Translations under genes and position numbers: made by a program | Notes under the pieces: generated by a model | What the model saw: the letters and a program-made list of their open reading frames with translations, nothing else | What the model was told of the DNA's origin: nothing | Database searches by the model: none | Shown here: in pieces, positions 19,103-38,006 of the stretch | Layout: each line of letters opens with the position of its first letter | Position numbering within the stretch: position 1 is the stretch's first letter | NCBI GenBank assembly: GCA_951828385.1 | Contig: OX639973.1 | Span: 124,001-188,000, forward strand | Source of the DNA: an uncultured Poribacteria bacterium | GTDB taxonomy: Bacteria; Poribacteria; WGA-4E; WGA-3G | DNA length: 64,000 bases | Direction: 5' to 3'

Positions 19103-20704
19103 ATGAAAACGTTTGGAACCCAAGGCCCTGTAAATCCTAAAGATAACTACGTTGTCTCGCGCACCGAGGAGATTGCGGATTTTGTTGATCGCGTTAAAAA
19201 AGGCAAATACATCGTTCTCTTCGCTCCGCGCCAGACCGGTAAGACGACCCTCTTCCGCGCCGCTATAGATACGCTCATAGCTGATGCGTACTTTCCAATT
19301 CAATTGAATTTTGAGGCGTATATCGACTTAACCCCTGCTGCTTTTTACGGTTACTTCATCAAAGATATTCATCGGGCAATTGAACACGTTTTCGAGAAAA
19401 GAGATACCACGCCTTCTGAGACATTGAACCAATTTTTGGATGATACAGAGGTAACAGATCATCTTTCAATGCGAAATTTTTTCCAGCAACTGCCTCGTTT
19501 TCTGACACACCCTGATAACGGACAAAAAATTGTTCTCATCATTGACGAGTTTGATGCCATTCCACCAGATGCTGTTCGTGGTTTCCTTCATTCGCTCCGT
19601 TATATTTACCTCGATAACTCAAGACTCCGCTGTCCTTATAGCGTCGGTATTGTTGGCGTCAAGAACATCACACAACTCAACTATGACCGATCAATCTCTC
19701 CGTTCAATATCCAAGATGAATTTCACTTACCCAATTTCACGCTGGCACAGGTTCGTGAACTCCTTGAGCAGTACACCGAAGAGGTAGGTCAAGCCTTCGC
19801 TCCTGAAGTTATCACTGCTATTCACAAACAGACTGCCGGGCAACCGTTCTTCGTCAATCGATGCGCGCAAATTCTCACCGAAGAAATGGACATTCCGAAA
19901 AATGAAACCATTACATTAGTCCACTTTTCTAAAGCACATAGACAGCTTCTTCGTGAACGGAACACTAACATTGATCATTTGATAGCTAATATTCGTAAAA
20001 AACCCCGCTTTGAAAGAATTTTAATGAGAATCACCGCTTACGATGATGGACTCGATTTTAATCTACGTGATGAATCCATTGATGAACTCGCTACTTATGG
20101 AGTCATTTCTGAAGCGGATGATGGAATGTGTGAAATTGCCAACCCAATTTATCTGTATTCCATCTTACAAGCCTTTAAACCGGCAGTGAATGGGTTGGAA
20201 CAAGAATATTTTCCCGAAGATACTGCGGATGGCTTTCGTGATTACCTCACCTCTGCAGGGGAAATTGAAATGGAGGCACTACTTAATAATTTCCGAGATT
20301 TTATTGCGCGCGCAGGGTTCAAGATTCTGCAAGTTCCAGATACGCCACAAGAATCTGTGGGGCGACACCTACTCCTCGCTTACATTGAGCAATTTGTAAA
20401 ATTGGTCGGGGGTATGATGTATATTGAAGTACAAACCGGGCGTGGCAGAATAGATCTCCTTATTACCCACAATCAGCGAAAACACATCGTTGAGACAAAG
20501 GTTTGGAGGGGTGAAGTCAGCTATCAAACAGGCAAAAAGCAGCTTGCGGCATATCTCAAATTAGAAGGCGCGCAGGAAGGGTATTATGTCGTATTCGATC
20601 ATCGTAAGAATCCTACACCGCGCGCCGAGACAGAGACGGTAGACGGTTTGACAATTCGGAGCTACATTATTCCTGTAATACAAGAACAGCCTTCATCAGT
20701 TTAG
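19103..20704 (+). CDS. AAA-like ATPase fused to a C-terminal PD-(D/E)XK nuclease domain
   Basis: 533 residues; CAAGAGGAAAAA precedes the ATG. It contains Walker A APRQTGKTT (41-49), Walker B IVLIIDEFD (143-151), and an archaeal-ATPase-like helical region (about 200-330). The C-terminal domain (about 390-530) carries D451 in GRIDLLIT and E464-x-K466 in VETKVW, a D-x12-E-x-K nuclease core. It therefore belongs to the AAA-like/PDDEXK_9-type proteins, often found near mobile elements and of unclear role (defence or transposition regulation). It shares a transcript with the Mrr_N-like protein. An unrelated gene follows on the other strand. Confidence 0.82.
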   Translation: MKTFGTQGPVNPKDNYVVSRTEEIADFVDRVKKGKYIVLFAPRQTGKTTLFRAAIDTLIADAYFPIQLNFEAYIDLTPAAFYGYFIKDIHRAIEHVFEKRDTTPSETLNQFLDDTEVTDHLSMRNFFQQLPRFLTHPDNGQKIVLIIDEFDAIPPDAVRGFLHSLRYIYLDNSRLRCPYSVGIVGVKNITQLNYDRSISPFNIQDEFHLPNFTLAQVRELLEQYTEEVGQAFAPEVITAIHKQTAGQPFFVNRCAQILTEEMDIPKNETITLVHFSKAHRQLLRERNTNIDHLIANIRKKPRFERILMRITAYDDGLDFNLRDESIDELATYGVISEADDGMCEIANPIYLYSILQAFKPAVNGLEQEYFPEDTADGFRDYLTSAGEIEMEALLNNFRDFIARAGFKILQVPDTPQESVGRHLLLAYIEQFVKLVGGMMYIEVQTGRGRIDLLITHNQRKHIVETKVWRGEVSYQTGKKQLAAYLKLEGAQEGYYVVFDHRKNPTPRAETETVDGLTIRSYIIPVIQEQPSSV

Positions 20705-28589: not shown

Positions 28590-29729
28590 ATGACCCATTT
28601 TTTCCGAAGCTTGCAAGCCTGCCTTATTTTACTTTTTTTCATTGCCACTCCCACACTTTTTAGCGATGTTTACCGTATCAAGAAAGGCGATACCCTTCTA
28701 ATTGCTGTCATCGGACAACCGGAATATACGCATTCCGTGCAGGTCCGGGAGGACGGTAGGATCAACTACTTCGGCGGCGAGTTTGATGCTGCTGGAGCTA
28801 CGGTGACAACCGTCAATCATCTGATTCGCGAGTTTCTCGTCCGAGATAATCACGTTAGCAACCCTGTTGTTATGGTGTCCTTGGTGTCACAAGAGAACGG
28901 TGTCTTCGTCGGCGGTGCAGTAAAAACCCCCGGACGTTATACCATTTCACCGGAGACCGATATTGGTTTATACCGTGCCATCGCGCTCGCAGGTGGTATG
29001 GCAGAAAACGCTGATCGCCAAGGTGTCCAATTAATTCGCACCGATACAACCCAAAAAGTTGAAACCTACGACCTCTCTACAAACCGTCCTTACCGCAATA
29101 TCCGCGTCAACATCAACGATTTGGTGTACATTATGCCACTGGCGGTCGTTGAGGTGCAGGGACAGGTCCAAAACCCGGGAAAATTTTTTGTGCGTGGAAA
29201 CATTGGTATCAGGCAGGCACTTGCCCGCGCTGGCGGCCCCGATCAAGAAGCCGATCTGACCGCGGTTGTGAAGGTCGAAAAAAGTGGAAAACTCTCCGAA
29301 TTCAACCTCTCCGAACAGTTTTGGAAATCGCCGCCAAGCGGTGCCGAGCTTCCATCCTTATCAGACGGTGATGTCCTGTATGTCCCTAATGTCTTTAAAG
29401 TTGAGCGTATCTATGTAACTGGTTACGTTCGCGTCCCGGGTGCCCAACGGGTTCGCGGTCCTTTGACCGTCGCCCGGGCACTCGCACTCGCGGGTGGCTT
29501 TGAGGCTTCTGCGGACCGTGAAAAAGTCTTGATCCACCGCCGGGACGGTACAACCTTAGAGACCCCTTTCACATTCAACCCTGCTGAAGGTGAAGCGCGA
29601 CAGACGCTACTCTACCCGGGCGACATTTTAGAGATCAAAAAGAAGTTCCAAGTCAATTGGGGGCTCATCAGCACTTTCGCCTACATCGTTATCAGCGGTG
29701 TCGGGATTATCATCCAGCTGACAAAGTAA
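28590..29729 (+). CDS. Wza-like polysaccharide export protein with SLBB domains
   Basis: 379 residues. The signal peptide (LILLFFIATPTLFS) is followed by the poly_export domain (YRIKKGDTLLIAVIGQPEYT, VREDGRINYFGG) and three SLBB beta-grasp units (VFVGGAVKTPGRYTI, VEVQGQVQNPGKFFV, IYVTGYVRVPGAQRV). It ends with a membrane helix (FAYIVISGVGIIIQLT). Such proteins form the outer-membrane channel of capsule or exopolysaccharide export. No Wzc kinase or glycosyltransferase is adjacent; the helicase gene starts 25 bp downstream on the same strand, probably by chance of arrangement. Confidence 0.88.
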   Translation: MTHFFRSLQACLILLFFIATPTLFSDVYRIKKGDTLLIAVIGQPEYTHSVQVREDGRINYFGGEFDAAGATVTTVNHLIREFLVRDNHVSNPVVMVSLVSQENGVFVGGAVKTPGRYTISPETDIGLYRAIALAGGMAENADRQGVQLIRTDTTQKVETYDLSTNRPYRNIRVNINDLVYIMPLAVVEVQGQVQNPGKFFVRGNIGIRQALARAGGPDQEADLTAVVKVEKSGKLSEFNLSEQFWKSPPSGAELPSLSDGDVLYVPNVFKVERIYVTGYVRVPGAQRVRGPLTVARALALAGGFEASADREKVLIHRRDGTTLETPFTFNPAEGEARQTLLYPGDILEIKKKFQVNWGLISTFAYIVISGVGIIIQLTK

Positions 29730-29754: not shown

Positions 29755-32700
29755 ATGAACCAGAACCCTTCCTCGGAATTCGCGCCCGGTCAAATCGTTT
29801 TTTTGAGATCAAATCCTGATACGCGTGGTGCTGTGATGGCGGTGTTACCGGGGACCCCTGAAAACCGTATCAACGTTTTTGTTGATGGGAACGTTCACAC
29901 ATTTTACGCCTCTCAGTTGCAGATTGAGGTTCAAAGCGATGATTCGCGCACGTATTCATGCGATGAATTTCACGCCTATCTCACCGCGCTACAAATTCGT
30001 TACCCCGCACTATCGGCATTGTATTCGCTCAACGCAGCGCGAGTTGATTTTATTCCATACCAATACCGACCCGTCCTCAAATTCATCAAAGCAGACCTGC
30101 CGAGATTGCTCATCGCCGATAGTGTCGGTGTAGGGAAAACGATTGAGGCAGGATTGATTCTACGCGAGCTACAAGCACGTAGCGACATCAGATCTGTCCT
30201 CATTATATGCCCGCGGCCTTTGGTCGCTGAGCAAAAATGGCAGCGCGAGATGAAACGGTTTGACGAAAATTTTGAACATCTCGATGGCAAGACACTCCAG
30301 TATTGCATTAATGAGATGTATCTTGATGGCGAGTGGCCCGAGCAATACCAGAAGGTGATTCTCCCGTATTCGTTGTTGAATAATACACTCCTTTTTGGGC
30401 CCGGCGGGAATAAAAAGACAAGGAAGAAGGGACTTTTATATCTCGATCCGCCCCCGAACTTTGATCTCGTCATCGTAGATGAGGCACACCATATCCGAAA
30501 TCAAGGCACAGCCAATCATGAAGCCGTCCGGTTCTTCTGTGAAAATGCGGAAGCAGCAATTTTTCTCACGGCGACCCCTATCCAACTCGGTAGTCATGAC
30601 CTGTTTGTTCTCCTTAATGTGCTGCGTCCTGATCTGATCCTCGATGAGGAGAGTTTTAATCACATGGCGGAGCCGAACCCGTTTATTAATCAGGCAGTTG
30701 ACGCTGCGCGCGCCCAAGAGAGACAATGGGCACGGACAGCAAAAGAATCTCTTGATCAGGCTGCGAATACCTCGTGGGGACAATCAATCCTTAATGCCAA
30801 TCCAGAATACAAGCGGATTAAAAGTCAACTGTCAGATGGGCGTATCACTCCTGAAGAACGCGTTCAACTCATCACTGATATGGAGGCACTCCACACATTT
30901 TCTGGGATAATCAACAGGACCCGCCGTCGCGATATCGGTGAGTTTACCATTCGACGACCGCAGACAGTGGAAGTGGCATTGACGACCGAACAATCTGATC
31001 TTCATGAAGCACTGCTTGAAACGCAAGCGGAGATATTCCGGAGTCTCCACGGGAACCAGAGCGTTAACTTCATGATGACAACGCTCCGCCGGCAATTGGC
31101 AAGCTGCTTGCATGGACTGGAACCCCTACTTGAGGATATCTTGAACCGCCGACTTGACGAACTTGAGTGGACGGAAGCCGGTGTTGTTGATGAGATACCT
31201 TCGGGAGAACTTGTAACACAAATCCGTGAACAGATTGAAGCGATTCTTGAGAAAGCCAAAAATCTGGATGCAGACGATTTGAAGTTAGAGGCTCTCCGAA
31301 AAGTTGTCCGGAGTAGGCAACGCCGCCGCAATAACAAGATCATGATCTTTAGCAGTTTTCGCCACACGCTTGCTTATCTTCACGAACATCTAATAGCCGA
31401 AGGTTTTCGCGTCGGGCTGATTCATGGCGGCGTACCGGACGAAGAACGATTGGAACTCAGAGCCCGATTTGAGAAGCCGAAAACCGAAGACGATAGCCTT
31501 GACCTGATGCTTTTCTCGGAAGTCGGCTGTGAAGGGTTGGACTACCAATTCTGTGACTGCATCGTTAACTACGATCTGCCGTGGAACCCGATGAAAGTGG
31601 AGCAACGGATAGGACGTATTGACAGGAAGGGGCAGCAAAGTGAGAGTGTTACCATCGTGAACCTAATCACACCCGGAACCGTTGATGCCGACATCTATGA
31701 ACGGTGTTTACTTCGGATCGGTGTGTTTGAGAGTGCGCTGGGTGGTAGCGAGGAAATCCTCGGAGAAATCACAACCGAGCTCCGCGGAATCGCCGAAAAT
31801 CACGAACTAACGCAAGAGGAACGAAGAATTAAGTTGCAACAGTTGGCAGATAACAAGATTTTGTTAGTCCAGGAACAGGAGCAACTTGAGGCACAGCAAT
31901 TGGACCTGTTCGGACTCCGTTTCCCTGAAGATAGAATGGAGAAAGAGGTCGAAGATGCCTCCAGTTTCTGGCTATCTCCAGCATCTATACAGCGGCTTGT
32001 CACACGTTATCTGCTACAGAAAATCGGAACAGCGCAGGAATTTATCCTTGGTGAGAAACCTCTTAAAACCCTTCGGCTTGCTGAAGGCGCGCGAAACGCC
32101 TTATTGACGGATTTACAGCCATTTGCTGGTAAAAAGTCGAGAGTCTATCGGGAGTGGGAAAACTGGTTGAAGGGTTCAGATCCGCACTTGCCTATAACCT
32201 TTGAAGCAGACTGCGCAACGCAGCGTCCTGACGCTGCATTTATTATGCCGACGCACCCTTTAGTAAAACAGGCAGCAGTCGCATTGAACACTGAGCAAGA
32301 TATCGTCACAAAACTGAAGGTCAGAACGAACAAGGTTCCCCTGGGGCGTTACGAATTTGCTATCTACCAATGGCGGTATTTAGGGATAAGGGAGCATTTG
32401 GTAATTAAACCCGTTGCATCATCCGGGGAGTTGACACCACACCTTAACGACCTGCTTGAGAAGGCAGTAGATAGCGATACACACGGAAGCGATGTACCTA
32501 TTGCGCAAGAAGCCTTAGAAAAGATGCACCAGCACCTCTGGGCTGAAGCGCGTAATAAACATCGGGAGCGGACACAAGCGTTAGCAGACTACCGCAAAGA
32601 AAGCCTATCAACCAGTCATCAGAAACGGGTCGCACTACTTCAAGAGCGGATTGCGCAGGCGACTGATCCGAACATTCAACGGATGCGTCGAAGTGAGCTT

Positions 32701-32829
32701 GCCAACGCCGAGACGGATTACCGACGGCGTATCCGAGAGTTTGACGAAGCAATGGAGAAAGCAGACATTACAGCAGAACCCGTGGCTTATGGCGTTCTGG
32801 AAATAAAAGGAGAAAGTAATGAAAATTGA
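29755..32829 (+). CDS. SNF2/RapA-like superfamily 2 helicase (putative defence helicase)
   Basis: 1024 residues with AAGGAGAG before the ATG. The N-terminus (FAPGQIVFLRSNPDTRGAV) forms an SH3-like/RapA_N-type lead. Helicase motifs: Walker A DSVGVGKT (122-129), VDEAHHIRN (241-249), LTATPIQ (271-277), and C-terminal VGCEGLDYQ, NYDLPWNP and QRIGRIDRKGQ (about 615-626). Long charged helices follow to the end. It resembles RapA/HepA and the DISARM helicase DrmD more than chromatin-type SNF2 proteins. Its last 11 bases overlap the start of the sacsin-like ATPase gene, so the two products are made together. No methylase or DISARM partner is adjacent. Confidence 0.88.
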   Translation: MNQNPSSEFAPGQIVFLRSNPDTRGAVMAVLPGTPENRINVFVDGNVHTFYASQLQIEVQSDDSRTYSCDEFHAYLTALQIRYPALSALYSLNAARVDFIPYQYRPVLKFIKADLPRLLIADSVGVGKTIEAGLILRELQARSDIRSVLIICPRPLVAEQKWQREMKRFDENFEHLDGKTLQYCINEMYLDGEWPEQYQKVILPYSLLNNTLLFGPGGNKKTRKKGLLYLDPPPNFDLVIVDEAHHIRNQGTANHEAVRFFCENAEAAIFLTATPIQLGSHDLFVLLNVLRPDLILDEESFNHMAEPNPFINQAVDAARAQERQWARTAKESLDQAANTSWGQSILNANPEYKRIKSQLSDGRITPEERVQLITDMEALHTFSGIINRTRRRDIGEFTIRRPQTVEVALTTEQSDLHEALLETQAEIFRSLHGNQSVNFMMTTLRRQLASCLHGLEPLLEDILNRRLDELEWTEAGVVDEIPSGELVTQIREQIEAILEKAKNLDADDLKLEALRKVVRSRQRRRNNKIMIFSSFRHTLAYLHEHLIAEGFRVGLIHGGVPDEERLELRARFEKPKTEDDSLDLMLFSEVGCEGLDYQFCDCIVNYDLPWNPMKVEQRIGRIDRKGQQSESVTIVNLITPGTVDADIYERCLLRIGVFESALGGSEEILGEITTELRGIAENHELTQEERRIKLQQLADNKILLVQEQEQLEAQQLDLFGLRFPEDRMEKEVEDASSFWLSPASIQRLVTRYLLQKIGTAQEFILGEKPLKTLRLAEGARNALLTDLQPFAGKKSRVYREWENWLKGSDPHLPITFEADCATQRPDAAFIMPTHPLVKQAAVALNTEQDIVTKLKVRTNKVPLGRYEFAIYQWRYLGIREHLVIKPVASSGELTPHLNDLLEKAVDSDTHGSDVPIAQEALEKMHQHLWAEARNKHRERTQALADYRKESLSTSHQKRVALLQERIAQATDPNIQRMRRSELANAETDYRRRIREFDEAMEKADITAEPVAYGVLEIKGESNEN

Positions 32830-35800
32830 TCAATTATCTGAAAAACGAAAAGACTTGCGTCAACAACTCATTGCTAACGATGCTATGGAGGGTTTCAAGG
32901 AGTTGCTTACAGTCTTATATTCGGACAAAGTCCACTTCATTTATGAATTACTTCAAAATGCCGAGGATGCCCGAGCAACTGAAGTGCAATTTGTGCTTAA
33001 GGCGGACAGACTTGAATTTGAGCACAATGGAGACCGACTTTTCAAGATAAAAGATGTAAAGTCTATTACCAATATCGGTTCCAGTACTAAGGTAGATGAT
33101 ATCAGGAGTATCGGCAAATTCGGGATTGGTTTCAAGGCAGTATTCGCTTATACCTCCACACCAGAGATTGAATCCGGGAACTTCCATTTTCGTATTCACG
33201 ACATGTTTGTGCCCGATACTGATGGTCTGGCTCCCGGGGCACTCGGTGAAAAGCGAACGCGCTTCGTTTTTCCTTTTGATAATCCTGACAAGTCTCCGGA
33301 AAAAGCAAGCGAAGAAATAGAAACCAAGCTCCGGCAACTCAACGAAAACGCTTTGCTTTTTCTAAGCAATATCCGCAAAATAGAGTACAGCTTACCTAAC
33401 TTAACAACAGGATTTCTGGAACGGAGAGAAGACGCGAATGATAGTAATCGTATTGAGATTTCCGTTATGCGTCCGGAAGGTATAGTGCCTGAACCTACCC
33501 ATTATCTTAGATTTGAGAAGGTTGTTTCTGTTAAAGATGAAGATAGTGATGAACTCAAGAAATGCCGAATTGCAATCGCATTTGGCATGAATAAACCTGG
33601 AGGCGGTGAATGGAAAATCGTCCCCTTAAACCCAGGTCAAGTCTGCATCTATTTTCCTGCCGTAAAGGAGACTTCCAAGCTACGATTCCACCTGCACGCG
33701 CCCTTTGCCTCAACCGTTGCACGTGACAGCGTTCGCGAATGTTCAGCTAACGACGAATTGCGAGATCATCTTGCTGAGTTGATTGCCGAATCAATGCATA
33801 CTATCCGTGACCAAGGCTTGCTGAATGTAGAATTTTTAGCAACTTTACCGAACAGCAGAAATGATCTGCTTCCATTTTATCTACCTATCCAAGAACGGTT
33901 AATTGAAGAATTCAATACCGAAAAACTAACACCTATGAAACGGAGCCGGAGTGAACATGCTGCTGCCTCTGGATGTTACCGAACACCTCCCCGTTATAGA
34001 GCATTATCCGATTTGGTTAACGATGAAAATTTAGCAATCCTCCTTGAGAAAGATCGTGATCGGCCTTTGTGGATTGCTAACCCTCCACAAATCAACCAAC
34101 CAGAAGATAATTTCCTGTCCATGTTGGATATTGCCCTATGGGATCCCGAGGAACTGATAAAAATTATAGACACCCAATCTGATCGGGTAATGGAATTGTT
34201 AAAGAAAAAACCAGTTGAGTGGCATCAAGATATGTATGGATTCCTAGGCGATTTCCTCATAAATGCCCCATCGTCTCCACTTTATATAGCACGTGAACGC
34301 CAAAATAAGTTGTCTAATCTTCGCATTATCCTCTGTAGCGATGGCGAATACAGAATCGGCAGTGAGTGTCACTTTCTTGATGATGTGGAATTTGAGTTTG
34401 AAAAAGAACAAGCGCAATCGGAGGAGTTCCGCTACGTTGCTAAAGGGGTCTATTCATCTGGACAAAACGAGAATAAGCAACAGAAAGCCCGTGAATTCCT
34501 TGAAAAAATTGGCGTTTGTGAAGTTGACGAAGCCGAACGAATTAAGGCAATTTTGAGACAACGATACGAAGATTCGGACACTGTAATACCGCCTAAACTT
34601 CACGAAGAAGATATGAAAAGATTTATTATCTTTGTGGAAAATAATCCCGATAAGGCAGCTTTATTTGAGGGATACAATATCTTCGATACTTCTGGAGGAA
34701 ACTGGTCCACATCTCTCATTTTCCTTGATTCACCATATCTTGAGACAGGTTTGAATGTCTATTATGAGGATGATGAGTACTGGGAATATATAGAAAAAGA
34801 AAATGTCTATCCCTATTTCTCACTGGATTATGAAGAGTCCGACATAGACCCGGAAAAACTTGGAAAATTCGCAAAGGCATTAGGAGCAAGAACACAATTG
34901 GAAACCACTAAACAAGAGATTCCACCTGATCATCCTCAATTCTACTATCTCCGCTCGGCCCCTGGTTTTAAGTGGACTCACACAGGTATTGATGAAGACT
35001 ATAGCATTCCTGAGTTCCGAATGCTGATTGCTAATCCTTCAATTGTTAAGTCAAGGTTAATTTGGCAGGCAATGTGTTCCGCTCCGGACTCTTCTCTAAA
35101 ATCCCGGTTTCGTTGGAACCAGAGTTACTCAACATGCGAGGGAGACTCTAGCCTTGTGCATGAGTTAAGGGAAGCAAGATGGGTGCCGCAGAAAAATGGA
35201 GAGTCTATCTCTTTTATGCGTCCTAAGGATACATCAATTACGCTTCTGCCCGAAGGTTTTCCCTACCAAACAGGGCCAAAATGGCTTGAAGCGATTGAAT
35301 TCGGTAAGATTGCGAATCAACAAAGGTCAGAAGACATTCTTAAAGAGGCTGAGCAAAACTTACGAAATCGCCGCGCTGCAGAGATGGGATTCAATTCTGC
35401 CGATGAAGCTAACACAATGGCAGAGATCGCAAACGCTTGGAAGGCACAGGGAAAATCGCCTGATGAATTGCGTGATAAACTTATTGCCGGAAAACGACGG
35501 AAGGAACGGATCTTTATTGAACTTGAAGATGCACCGGAAAAAGAGTATGAACAGCGTTTGAGAAGTGTTAGGAGTACAATTGGAACGATTGATCGTAGAA
35601 CTTACCTCAGAGCGCAGTATACGACAGATGACGATAAAATGGAGTGCCAAATGTGTCGACAGGATATGCCGTTTAAAAAACGCAATAGTGATGAAGATTA
35701 CTTTGAAGCAGTAGAGGCACTCAAAAAAGATCATTTCCCCAAAGAGCATGAGGCGCAGCATCTCGCGTTGTGTCCAGCCTGCGCGGCGAAGTATAAAGAA

Positions 35801-35989
35801 TTCGTAAAGCGTGACGAAAAAGCGCGGGCAGCTTTGTATAGTCTCCTGAAGAATTCGGGTATCCCTGAAGGACGCTTACAATTGAGTGATCTTGTGATAC
35901 GTATTTGGTTTAAAGAAAAACATTGGCAGGATATGAAAACGGTCTTAGACTATTATGAAAACATATACAACCCTGACGAGTCCGATTAG
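32819..35989 (+). CDS. Sacsin-like GHKL (HSP90-type) ATPase with C-terminal zinc-finger/HNH-like module
   Basis: 1056 residues; AAAGGAGAAAGTA precedes the ATG inside the helicase gene. The N-terminal Bergerat fold has ELLQNAEDA (N-box, E43/N47) and IGKFGIGFKAVF (Gly-rich lid), as in sacsin and NO VEIN proteins. The middle 600 residues are unassigned. Near the C-terminus ECQMCRQ (C943, C946) and LCPACAAKY (C985, C988) flank a segment resembling an HNH/zinc-finger nuclease without clear catalytic His. Prokaryotic MORC/MutL-like GHKL ATPases linked to SNF2 helicases have been described in restriction-like systems; this pair fits that idea. The gene appears more AT-rich than its neighbours. Confidence 0.82.
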   Translation: MKIDQLSEKRKDLRQQLIANDAMEGFKELLTVLYSDKVHFIYELLQNAEDARATEVQFVLKADRLEFEHNGDRLFKIKDVKSITNIGSSTKVDDIRSIGKFGIGFKAVFAYTSTPEIESGNFHFRIHDMFVPDTDGLAPGALGEKRTRFVFPFDNPDKSPEKASEEIETKLRQLNENALLFLSNIRKIEYSLPNLTTGFLERREDANDSNRIEISVMRPEGIVPEPTHYLRFEKVVSVKDEDSDELKKCRIAIAFGMNKPGGGEWKIVPLNPGQVCIYFPAVKETSKLRFHLHAPFASTVARDSVRECSANDELRDHLAELIAESMHTIRDQGLLNVEFLATLPNSRNDLLPFYLPIQERLIEEFNTEKLTPMKRSRSEHAAASGCYRTPPRYRALSDLVNDENLAILLEKDRDRPLWIANPPQINQPEDNFLSMLDIALWDPEELIKIIDTQSDRVMELLKKKPVEWHQDMYGFLGDFLINAPSSPLYIARERQNKLSNLRIILCSDGEYRIGSECHFLDDVEFEFEKEQAQSEEFRYVAKGVYSSGQNENKQQKAREFLEKIGVCEVDEAERIKAILRQRYEDSDTVIPPKLHEEDMKRFIIFVENNPDKAALFEGYNIFDTSGGNWSTSLIFLDSPYLETGLNVYYEDDEYWEYIEKENVYPYFSLDYEESDIDPEKLGKFAKALGARTQLETTKQEIPPDHPQFYYLRSAPGFKWTHTGIDEDYSIPEFRMLIANPSIVKSRLIWQAMCSAPDSSLKSRFRWNQSYSTCEGDSSLVHELREARWVPQKNGESISFMRPKDTSITLLPEGFPYQTGPKWLEAIEFGKIANQQRSEDILKEAEQNLRNRRAAEMGFNSADEANTMAEIANAWKAQGKSPDELRDKLIAGKRRKERIFIELEDAPEKEYEQRLRSVRSTIGTIDRRTYLRAQYTTDDDKMECQMCRQDMPFKKRNSDEDYFEAVEALKKDHFPKEHEAQHLALCPACAAKYKEFVKRDEKARAALYSLLKNSGIPEGRLQLSDLVIRIWFKEKHWQDMKTVLDYYENIYNPDESD

Positions 35990-36567: not shown

Positions 36568-38006
36568 ATGGGTGTGTAAAGTTTTTGGCAGCACATTTAG
36601 GCAGCCTGCTTTTCTTGTGTGTCCCAATAAGTATCCCAAGTATCATTCTTTAGCAAACATCTCCAAAAGAGTATCGCATTGATGCCGGGTTTGCTCCATC
36701 GCATGCCTGCTTGTTTACAGCGTTCAGCGACAACATGCTTACAAGCCGACTCAATGACCCCACTGCCGATCTGATACCCCTTTTCGTTGAACGTCTCATA
36801 TTGCATGCGATCAGAATGTTTTTGAAAATAGCCGACTTCTCTTTCGAGGACATCTCCTATCGTTGGGTTTTGTGTTTCCAAATCTCGTATACGTGCGATG
36901 ACTTGGGCAGTCTCTCCATTGTAAAGAGGTGTCTCGGTCGCATTGACCCAAGTTTCGACGGTATCCCGGGCATCTTCTCCGAGGGCTTGCTTAGCAACAT
37001 CATATAAATGCCTCTTGGCATGCATATAGTCAACGATTTCGGTGGCACCCGGAAAGTGTTCATCCGCCAAGTTCCATATCCACGCCGCCCCATCCCCTAT
37101 GACGACGACTTCTTCGGTGTCCATCGTTTTTTCGTCTTGATAAATGCCGGTCTGTGTCGCTAAATCAGACAGGTGTTTACCAAAATCTGCCGCAGGGGTC
37201 ACAGAGGCGACATATCTCGGGCTCCCGGGGCGGACTTTTAGCACAGATGTAGCATGCGTATACGGATAATCTTTAGAAACGCTCCCGACTTTGACTTCTT
37301 TCCAACCCGCCGGCGAGTTGGTGTGGCAACCATCACAAGAAACATACCACCGAGAGCCTGTATCAAGCGGTTCTTCATCTGCATAGGTAGAGACTTCTTC
37401 ACCTTCTGACCACGCCAGCACTTTCTGATGCAGCGTCGTGTGGCTGACCTGAATCCCGTGATGTTTCAACTCTGAAGCTGCCGCACGATAGTTCAGTTGT
37501 GCAGCTAAACGCATCATCGTTGCCGATACGCGCCGTGTATACTGACCCCTCAGGTCTTGACGGGCCTCCCATGGCACATGAATATGACCGCACCGGCATT
37601 TATACGCCCATCTCGACACACGCACAACACCACAAGCCGTCGTAAAGTTGCGCGCTCTGAACCGATACCGATGGCTATGCCCTTGACAAGATGGACACGG
37701 AACACTCAGAGGCGATGCTGCCTCAGAACTCGCTGCTTCTGATAGAACTGCCTCGGATAACCTTTGCGCCCAAGAACCAGCAGCCGCAGACACACGCGCT
37801 TCTACTGTTGAGACCCCAACGGCCTCGATATCACTGAGTTCTTGAAAAATAACTTCCATTTCTTCCTTGATTTCTGCTACAATGTTAGACATGGTATCTT
37901 CTCCTTAGGATAGACTTTTGGAACTAGCTTTTGGAGAAGATACCATTTTTCTTTACAAACTTCAACTCATTTCTAAAAAACGCTACCAAAAACTTTACAC
38001 ACCCAT
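36568..38006 (-). mobile_element. Complete ISKra4-family insertion sequence (~1.44 kb)
   Basis: 25-bp terminal inverted repeats with one mismatch (ATGGGTGTGTAAAGTTTTTG... at 36568-36592 and the complement at 37982-38006) enclose a single intact transposase gene. No clear target-site duplication was found. It lies between the helicase/ATPase pair and groEL; its right end is only 30 bp from the groEL promoter. Confidence 0.85.
36597..37892 (-). CDS. ISKra4 family transposase
   Basis: 431 residues, intact. Two zinc-knuckle pairs in the N-terminal part (CPSC at 66-69, CRCG about 99-102) are followed by the DDE catalytic core: D187 in YVSCDGCHT, D267 in VVIGDGAAWIW and E381 in IGSGVIESACK, with the family motif KQAGMRWSKPG just after. 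Residues 46-60 contain a tandem SEAAS-like repeat. AAGGAGAAGATACC precedes the ATG. It catalyses movement of the surrounding element; intactness suggests it may still be active. Confidence 0.93.
   Translation of the reverse strand: MSNIVAEIKEEMEVIFQELSDIEAVGVSTVEARVSAAAGSWAQRLSEAVLSEAASSEAASPLSVPCPSCQGHSHRYRFRARNFTTACGVVRVSRWAYKCRCGHIHVPWEARQDLRGQYTRRVSATMMRLAAQLNYRAAASELKHHGIQVSHTTLHQKVLAWSEGEEVSTYADEEPLDTGSRWYVSCDGCHTNSPAGWKEVKVGSVSKDYPYTHATSVLKVRPGSPRYVASVTPAADFGKHLSDLATQTGIYQDEKTMDTEEVVVIGDGAAWIWNLADEHFPGATEIVDYMHAKRHLYDVAKQALGEDARDTVETWVNATETPLYNGETAQVIARIRDLETQNPTIGDVLEREVGYFQKHSDRMQYETFNEKGYQIGSGVIESACKHVVAERCKQAGMRWSKPGINAILFWRCLLKNDTWDTYWDTQEKQAA

Follow-up and report, generated by a model that had tools for sequence, protein, structure and literature searches.

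Among described defence systems, the two closest to the locus reported here are DISARM, with the core genes drmA, drmB and drmC and the helicase DrmD, and Tiamat, a single-gene system consisting of the GHKL ATPase TmtA. Related proteins are known from further settings: RapA and BrxHII combine Tudor, SNF2, inactive restriction endonuclease and second alpha/beta domains (2026 BREX paper, PMC12839542), and paraMORC GHKL proteins with HEPN tails occur in restriction neighbourhoods (PMC3710099). Here, we describe a helicase gene and a GHKL ATPase gene that overlap in a 64,000-nucleotide stretch of DNA from an uncultured Poribacteria bacterium (assembly GCA_951828385.1, contig OX639973.1, positions 124,001 to 188,000), referred to below as the window. 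The first protein, P1, is a RapA/DrmD-type SNF2 helicase and the second, P2, is a sacsin-type GHKL ATPase, and the two genes form a self-contained unit that is found across some 15 phyla. Defence-gene homologues of each component, DrmD and TmtA, were already known; what appears to be new is the pairing of the helicase with the GHKL protein.

Two proteins related to known defence genes

Both open reading frames (ORFs) are intact and lie on the same strand in the ORF list of the window, and a Shine-Dalgarno-like AGGAGA precedes the ATG of each. The coordinates and lengths of two long genes with an 11-bp overlap, from which an earlier reading of the sequence (the original prediction) had started, were borne out (Table 1), and in related loci a 4-bp overlap (ATGA) between helicase stop and GHKL start is common. 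Within the genus, both genes are under purifying selection, with ratios of non-synonymous to synonymous substitution rates of 0.07-0.10 for P1 and 0.12-0.16 for P2.

P1 contains all the helicase superfamily 2 motifs that had been read from it (DSVGVGKT, VDEAHH and QRIGRIDRKGQ), and the core residues of Walker A, DEAH and motif VI show little or no variation across 55-66 homologues. With its Pfam matches to SNF2-rel_dom and Helicase_C and its RapA-like architecture, it belongs to the RapA/DrmD-type SNF2 helicases. The suspected kinship with DISARM DrmD is real, as P1 is homologous along nearly its whole length and matches the PADLOC DrmD model PDLC02623 over profile positions 3-944 of 1040 (E 6e-114). 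However, it scores 380 bits with this model, whereas a DrmD-type helicase from elsewhere scores 901, and its 318.8 bits with the NCBIfam DrmD model NF038317 lie below the equivalog cut-off of 610. In a structure model of P1 (mean predicted local distance difference test score, pLDDT, 82.8), RapA was the best whole-length fold match (E 7e-34, about 1078 alignment columns). P1 has a Tudor-like N-terminus, an SNF2 core and a RapA-like C-terminal region and plausibly shares the architecture of RapA and BrxHII (PMC12839542), but the identity in the fold alignment is about 19-20% and the link of P1 is with a GHKL gene, not with RNA polymerase or BREX genes. Beyond residue 669, no invariant D...ExK set was found in 55 homologues, which does not in itself prove that P1 lacks a nuclease.

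P2 likewise contains both predicted ATP-site motifs (ELLQNAEDA and GKFGIGFKAVF), and residues E43, N47, G99, G102 and G104 of the N-box and G2 box are invariant in 58-61 homologues. With this intact ATP-binding domain and its matches to Pfam SACS PF25794 (70.5 bits, cut-off 32.8) and the NCBIfam sacsin N-terminal domain NF047352 (90.8 bits, cut-off 50), P2 falls among the sacsin-type GHKL ATPases. A structure model was built from a 58-row alignment (mean pLDDT 86.5); as for P1, rows from the plasmid collection were left out. Foldseek matched residues 15-441 of the model to HSP90, GyrB, MutL, MORC and sacsin SR1, and comparison with GyrB, HSP90, MORC2 and MORC3 chains gave VIA Z values of about 14-16 with root-mean-square deviations of 3-7; these matches cover mainly residues 15-441 and hardly the rest of P2. 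Residues 15-441 are thus predicted to be a complete GHKL plus transducer unit. P2 has this arrangement in common with MORC, MutL and HSP90, but differs from them and from paraMORC in its family, sacsin, and in its partner, a RapA/DrmD-type motor. With TmtA, P2 shares the sacsin-type GHKL N-terminus and the middle (PADLOC model PDLC03972, E 1.8e-59, profile positions 3-794 of 1302). In contrast to TmtA, P2 and the paired relatives examined match this model up to about position 807 only and not at 1113-1300, a part that is matched by a GHKL protein of the L157 type, which ends in NOV_C and is not accompanied by a P1-type helicase; in its place, P2 has a zinc module, and a helicase gene is dedicated to it. 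The original prediction had called the system undescribed. This appears to hold for the pair, as no exact system match was found and no DrmD/SNF2 helicase paired with a sacsin/GHKL protein was found named in the open-access literature, the scope of a search that extended neither to subscription papers nor to the system definitions of the tools, but it does not hold for the parts, which are homologous to known defence genes.

Conservation and horizontal spread of the pair

An alignment of P2-type GHKL proteins was searched against 84,980 genomes and the 80 best loci were taken. A P1-family helicase ORF is present in 73 of these, almost always directly upstream, and no third gene family occurs near the pair at more than 5 of the 80 loci, the figure for the next commonest neighbour. 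By tblastn, the helicase is nearly complete, with at least 38% identity, at 63 of the loci and partial at 5; at the remaining 12 nothing passed the cut, and several of these are truncated by contig ends. Searches that start from the helicase avoid selection on P2. In such searches, matches were found in 2/298 genomes of the Pseudomonadaceae (at least 45% identity), 3/385 of the Alphaproteobacteria and 5/392 of the Planctomycetota (at least 38% in both), and every one was paired with a GHKL gene. Three full-length plasmid matches (46-47%) are in the same records as the three full-length P2 matches. In total, 13 of 13 helicases at 38% identity or more are followed by a GHKL gene, although the two directions of search are not wholly independent, as some genomes, among them those on which the three taxon searches were centred, had already been selected by P2. 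Within the genus of the window, nine of ten helicases are paired; the exception, in L049, is frameshifted at its end and has no GHKL gene beside it.

At 28-34% identity, helicases are mostly of the DrmD type, encoded beside DrmMI or DUF499/methyltransferase genes, and those examined have no GHKL partner. Two distant exceptions are still paired, one on a Methanomethylovorans plasmid (30%) and one in a member of the Myxococcales (L156, 28%), where the gene order is reversed. A phylogeny of 88 helicases places 77 paired ones in a single clade (Shimodaira-Hasegawa-like approximate likelihood ratio test support 100), separate from nine that are of the DrmD type or otherwise unpaired; those of L170 and L156 branch deeply, with long branches, and cannot be placed with confidence. 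The hosts belong to the Pseudomonadota, Actinomycetota, Bacillota, Planctomycetota, Chloroflexota, Nitrospirota, Gemmatimonadota, Thermodesulfobacteriota, Myxococcota, Cloacimonadota, Hydrogenedentota, Latescibacterota, Sumerlaeota, Margulisiibacteriota and Poribacteria. Within the clade, sequences from different phyla are interleaved, indicating that the unit moves horizontally. The co-occurrence on which the original prediction depended is therefore found from either gene, and with a patchy carriage of less than 2% of genomes in the three taxa, both neighbourhood and distribution are accessory and not those of housekeeping genes.

The C-terminal module and the chromosomal slot

The C-terminal CxxC...CxxC of P2 corresponds to C943/C946...C985/C988. 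Among 58 aligned GHKL proteins from helicase pairs, these ligands are kept in 58, 56, 58 and, counting C or H at position 988, 57 sequences, but the position equivalent, by motif alignment, to the HNH histidine of L148 is never histidine. The resemblance to an HNH finger that had been noted earlier is real, but the module is degenerate and its catalytic histidine has been lost in all 58 paired proteins. We therefore rejected a nuclease in P2, and because of this loss the sequence makes a docking module more likely. A strict pattern finds the module in 60 of 72 helicase-paired GHKL proteins, whereas most of the other 12 come from interrupted or split ORFs or have the module in a variant spelling, and in L041 an Hfq extension follows the module. 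GHKL proteins without a P1-type helicase are mostly nuclease-tailed. Solitary proteins carry an HNH tail (L050-L052), a NucS_C tail (L060, L205, L206 and L211 by Pfam, L207-L209 by the same tail sequence) or, as judged by eye, a PD-(D/E)xK-like tail (L054 and L055); a NOV_C tail is found in L157, and an HNH_2-like tail, below cut-off, in L148. The association between zinc module and paired helicase is strong but not absolute, as L093 has the module, yet its helicase is more distant and a ResIII gene is nearby. The solitary protein of L055 (L055:7159-10215) also matches sigma-70 region 2 at residues 487-554 (E 8e-10).

In relatives from the genus, the pair occupies one chromosomal slot behind the SLBB gene. 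In six genomes with this slot, the helicases are 78-87% identical, whereas GHKL proteins of unlike types are only about 25% identical to each other. The divergence is uneven: between GHKL types, residues 889-1048 (P2 numbering) are 41-51% identical and residues 1-888 about 21%. Such a pattern would be expected of a GHKL protein that is an exchangeable specificity component and uses its C-terminus to contact a partner that stays constant.

Downstream of the pair, relatives usually have a type-ISP-like methylase-specificity gene (1025 amino acids), a gene for a 250-amino-acid protein and a PIN gene; in the window, an insertion sequence (IS) and then groEL take their place. The 250-amino-acid gene of the window's genome is located at C1:529176, the window itself being C1:124001-188000. 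The original prediction of a module lacking a methylase is thus true of the window, and no methylase is obligatory, but related genomes usually have one just downstream. The methylase is still found in slots that lack the pair (L053 and L056-L060), and we therefore treat it as a resident of the slot and not as a component; as it is also absent beside the pair in other phyla, it was rejected as a third component. This protein has PF18135, coupler and N6_Mtase domains without the usual nuclease-helicase part, and copies are numerous, with 13 matches listed for the window's genome and as many as 17 for relatives (e.g. L057:9886-12963 and L056:9902-12988). The predicted IS was recovered, with a transposase that has a weak UPF0236 match below cut-off and with inverted repeats (36568-36592 and 37982-38006) that are 96% complementary. 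It sits where synteny breaks, which suggests that an IS-linked rearrangement moved the right flank; the absence of an exact target duplication next to the IS would fit such an event.

An Hfq-like protein was also rejected as a third component, being near only some Poribacterial pairs and not at the window locus. Hfq-fold (PF17209) proteins are encoded at the slot in L043:5740-6585, L046:13206-13751, L053:8014-8847, L056:8829-9668, L057:8803-9642 and L058:8017-8907, and in five of these six genomes they also have the 62-residue Tudor-like N-terminus of P1. An Hfq-like domain can also be part of the GHKL ORF, as a C-terminal fusion in L041 and as an N-terminal extension in L043 and L046. Further upstream in the window, positions 19103-20704 encode a 533-amino-acid AAA-ATPase (PF14516) with a weakly PD-(D/E)xK/NERD-like C-terminus, and proteins with a similar start (FGTQG) are encoded near the slot in L055, L057 and L058.

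Table 1. Features of the window locus and of related loci.
Feature	Position	Strand	Description
P1, RapA/DrmD-type SNF2 helicase	29755..32829	+	1024 aa; Tudor-like N-terminus ~1-62, SNF2 ATPase core ~90-660, RapA-like C-terminal region
P2, sacsin-type GHKL ATPase	32819..35989	+	1056 aa; predicted GHKL + transducer fold 15-441, variable middle, terminal zinc module
P1 stop/P2 start overlap	32819..32829	+	11 bp; fits coupled translation; related loci mostly -4 (ATGA)
Degenerate HNH-like zinc module, P2 residues 889-1056	35483..35986	+	C943, C946, C985, C988/H; catalytic His replaced; H1035 invariant; typical of helicase-paired GHKL proteins
SLBB/polysaccharide-export gene	28590..29729	+	ends 25 bp before P1; conserved left border of slot in related genomes
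Insertion sequence	36568..38006	-	transposase ORF 36597-37892; 25-bp inverted repeats; right border, synteny with relatives lost there
Type III-like Mod-Res genes, related loci	L091:2043-6370; L093:5522-9966; L119:1216-6919; L154:5438-9942

Possible role of the pair

We propose that the pair is a self-contained, horizontally moving operon directed against mobile elements such as phages or plasmids, a reading to which we assign a probability of about 0.6. The genomic context is consistent with a role in defence. One pair is carried on a conjugative Ensifer plasmid, where it adjoins a RecB-like nuclease gene, another lies in an archaeal plasmid region together with csa3 and genes for a restriction endonuclease, a site-specific methylase and a RelE/ParE toxin, and helicase and GHKL genes are adjacent on an unverified, phage-labelled 16.8-kb scaffold from human stool. 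At four loci, type III Mod-Res-like genes (N6_N4 methylase and ResIII) immediately precede the pair or the GHKL gene (Table 1). In L093 and L154, the ResIII gene holds the place next to the GHKL gene and a distant P1-like helicase is encoded further upstream.

Several points weigh against this proposal or limit its support. RapA is a housekeeping RNA-polymerase recycler. The sampling of the 80 loci began from similarity to P2, and some of the reciprocal matches come from the same genomes. The distances between helicases and between GHKL proteins are correlated (r = 0.78 for 54 non-Poribacterial pairs, 0 of 2000 permutations), but this partly reflects shared ancestry. A PADLOC scan found 50 families in 115 neighbour proteins versus 7 in 115 controls from six of the same genomes, which is modest support, because families and not genes were counted and several matches come from one methylase. 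Lastly, no recognisable nuclease site was seen in the sequence of either P1 or P2, which leaves the effector step unproven.

If the pair acts in defence, a division of labour with the ATPase as clamp and the helicase as translocase, as first suggested for this locus, is plausible. P2 would be the variable recognition or switch subunit, which binds ATP, dimerises and, through its fast-evolving middle region, closes on foreign nucleic acid or some other sign of infection. Its zinc module, which takes the place of the nuclease found in solitary relatives, would serve to dock P1, the constant partner. Recruited in this way, P1 would be the translocase motor, which strips polymerases from the invading DNA, blocks it or compacts it. 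As neither protein shows a recognisable nuclease site, the outcome would probably be non-nucleolytic. One might speculate further that this is a nuclease-free immunity resembling eukaryotic MORC/SNF2 silencing, in which an exchangeable GHKL clamp recruits a RapA-type motor through a dead HNH module, and that the sensor family works in two modes, with a nuclease in cis in solitary proteins and a motor in trans in paired ones; we consider this broader model tentative and rather doubtful.

Other explanations have to be weighed against an operon for defence. The pair could be a stress or transcription module, with a RapA-like RNA-polymerase recycler and a sacsin/HSP90-like chaperone as its partner. 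The whole-length fold match of P1 to RapA and the matches of the P2 N-terminus to GyrB, HSP90 and sacsin SR1 would fit such a module. However, its patchy presence, its carriage on plasmids, helicase clades in which phyla are mixed, the swapping of GHKL partners at a single locus and the nuclease tails of solitary relatives make a non-defence role unlikely. A divergent DISARM or restriction-modification system, in which P1 is DrmD, a methylase marks self and the window copy has lost its methylase, could account for the DrmD-like P1, for the methylase gene that usually follows the slot in Poribacteria and for nearby DNA methylase and ResIII genes at 5/80 and 4/80 loci, respectively. We regard it as quite improbable, as the methylase also occurs in slots without the pair and is missing beside it in other phyla, and P1 falls far below the DrmD cut-off, with the paired helicases forming a separate clade. 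As no third family recurs at more than 5 loci, drmA, drmB and drmC are not constant partners either; the neighbours in the window are the SLBB export gene, the IS and groEL. Least probable of all is that the locus is Tiamat with the helicase as a mere neighbour, since P2 does match the PADLOC TmtA models, but without their C-terminal part, and a single-gene system is at odds with a P1-type helicase alongside the GHKL gene at 73/80 loci and the reverse in 13/13 cases.

Taken together, if the proposed defence operon is real, a two-gene immune system present in some 15 bacterial phyla and on an archaeal plasmid would so far have been hidden because its parts were filed separately, as 'DrmD-like', 'Tiamat-like' and 'sacsin N-terminal domain'. 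It would also be a compact case of coupling between a GHKL ATPase and an SNF2 motor, a pairing better known from eukaryotic chromatin silencing. Furthermore, one sensor family would be able to exchange a fused nuclease, as its effector, for a helicase acting in trans, by way of a dead nuclease module.

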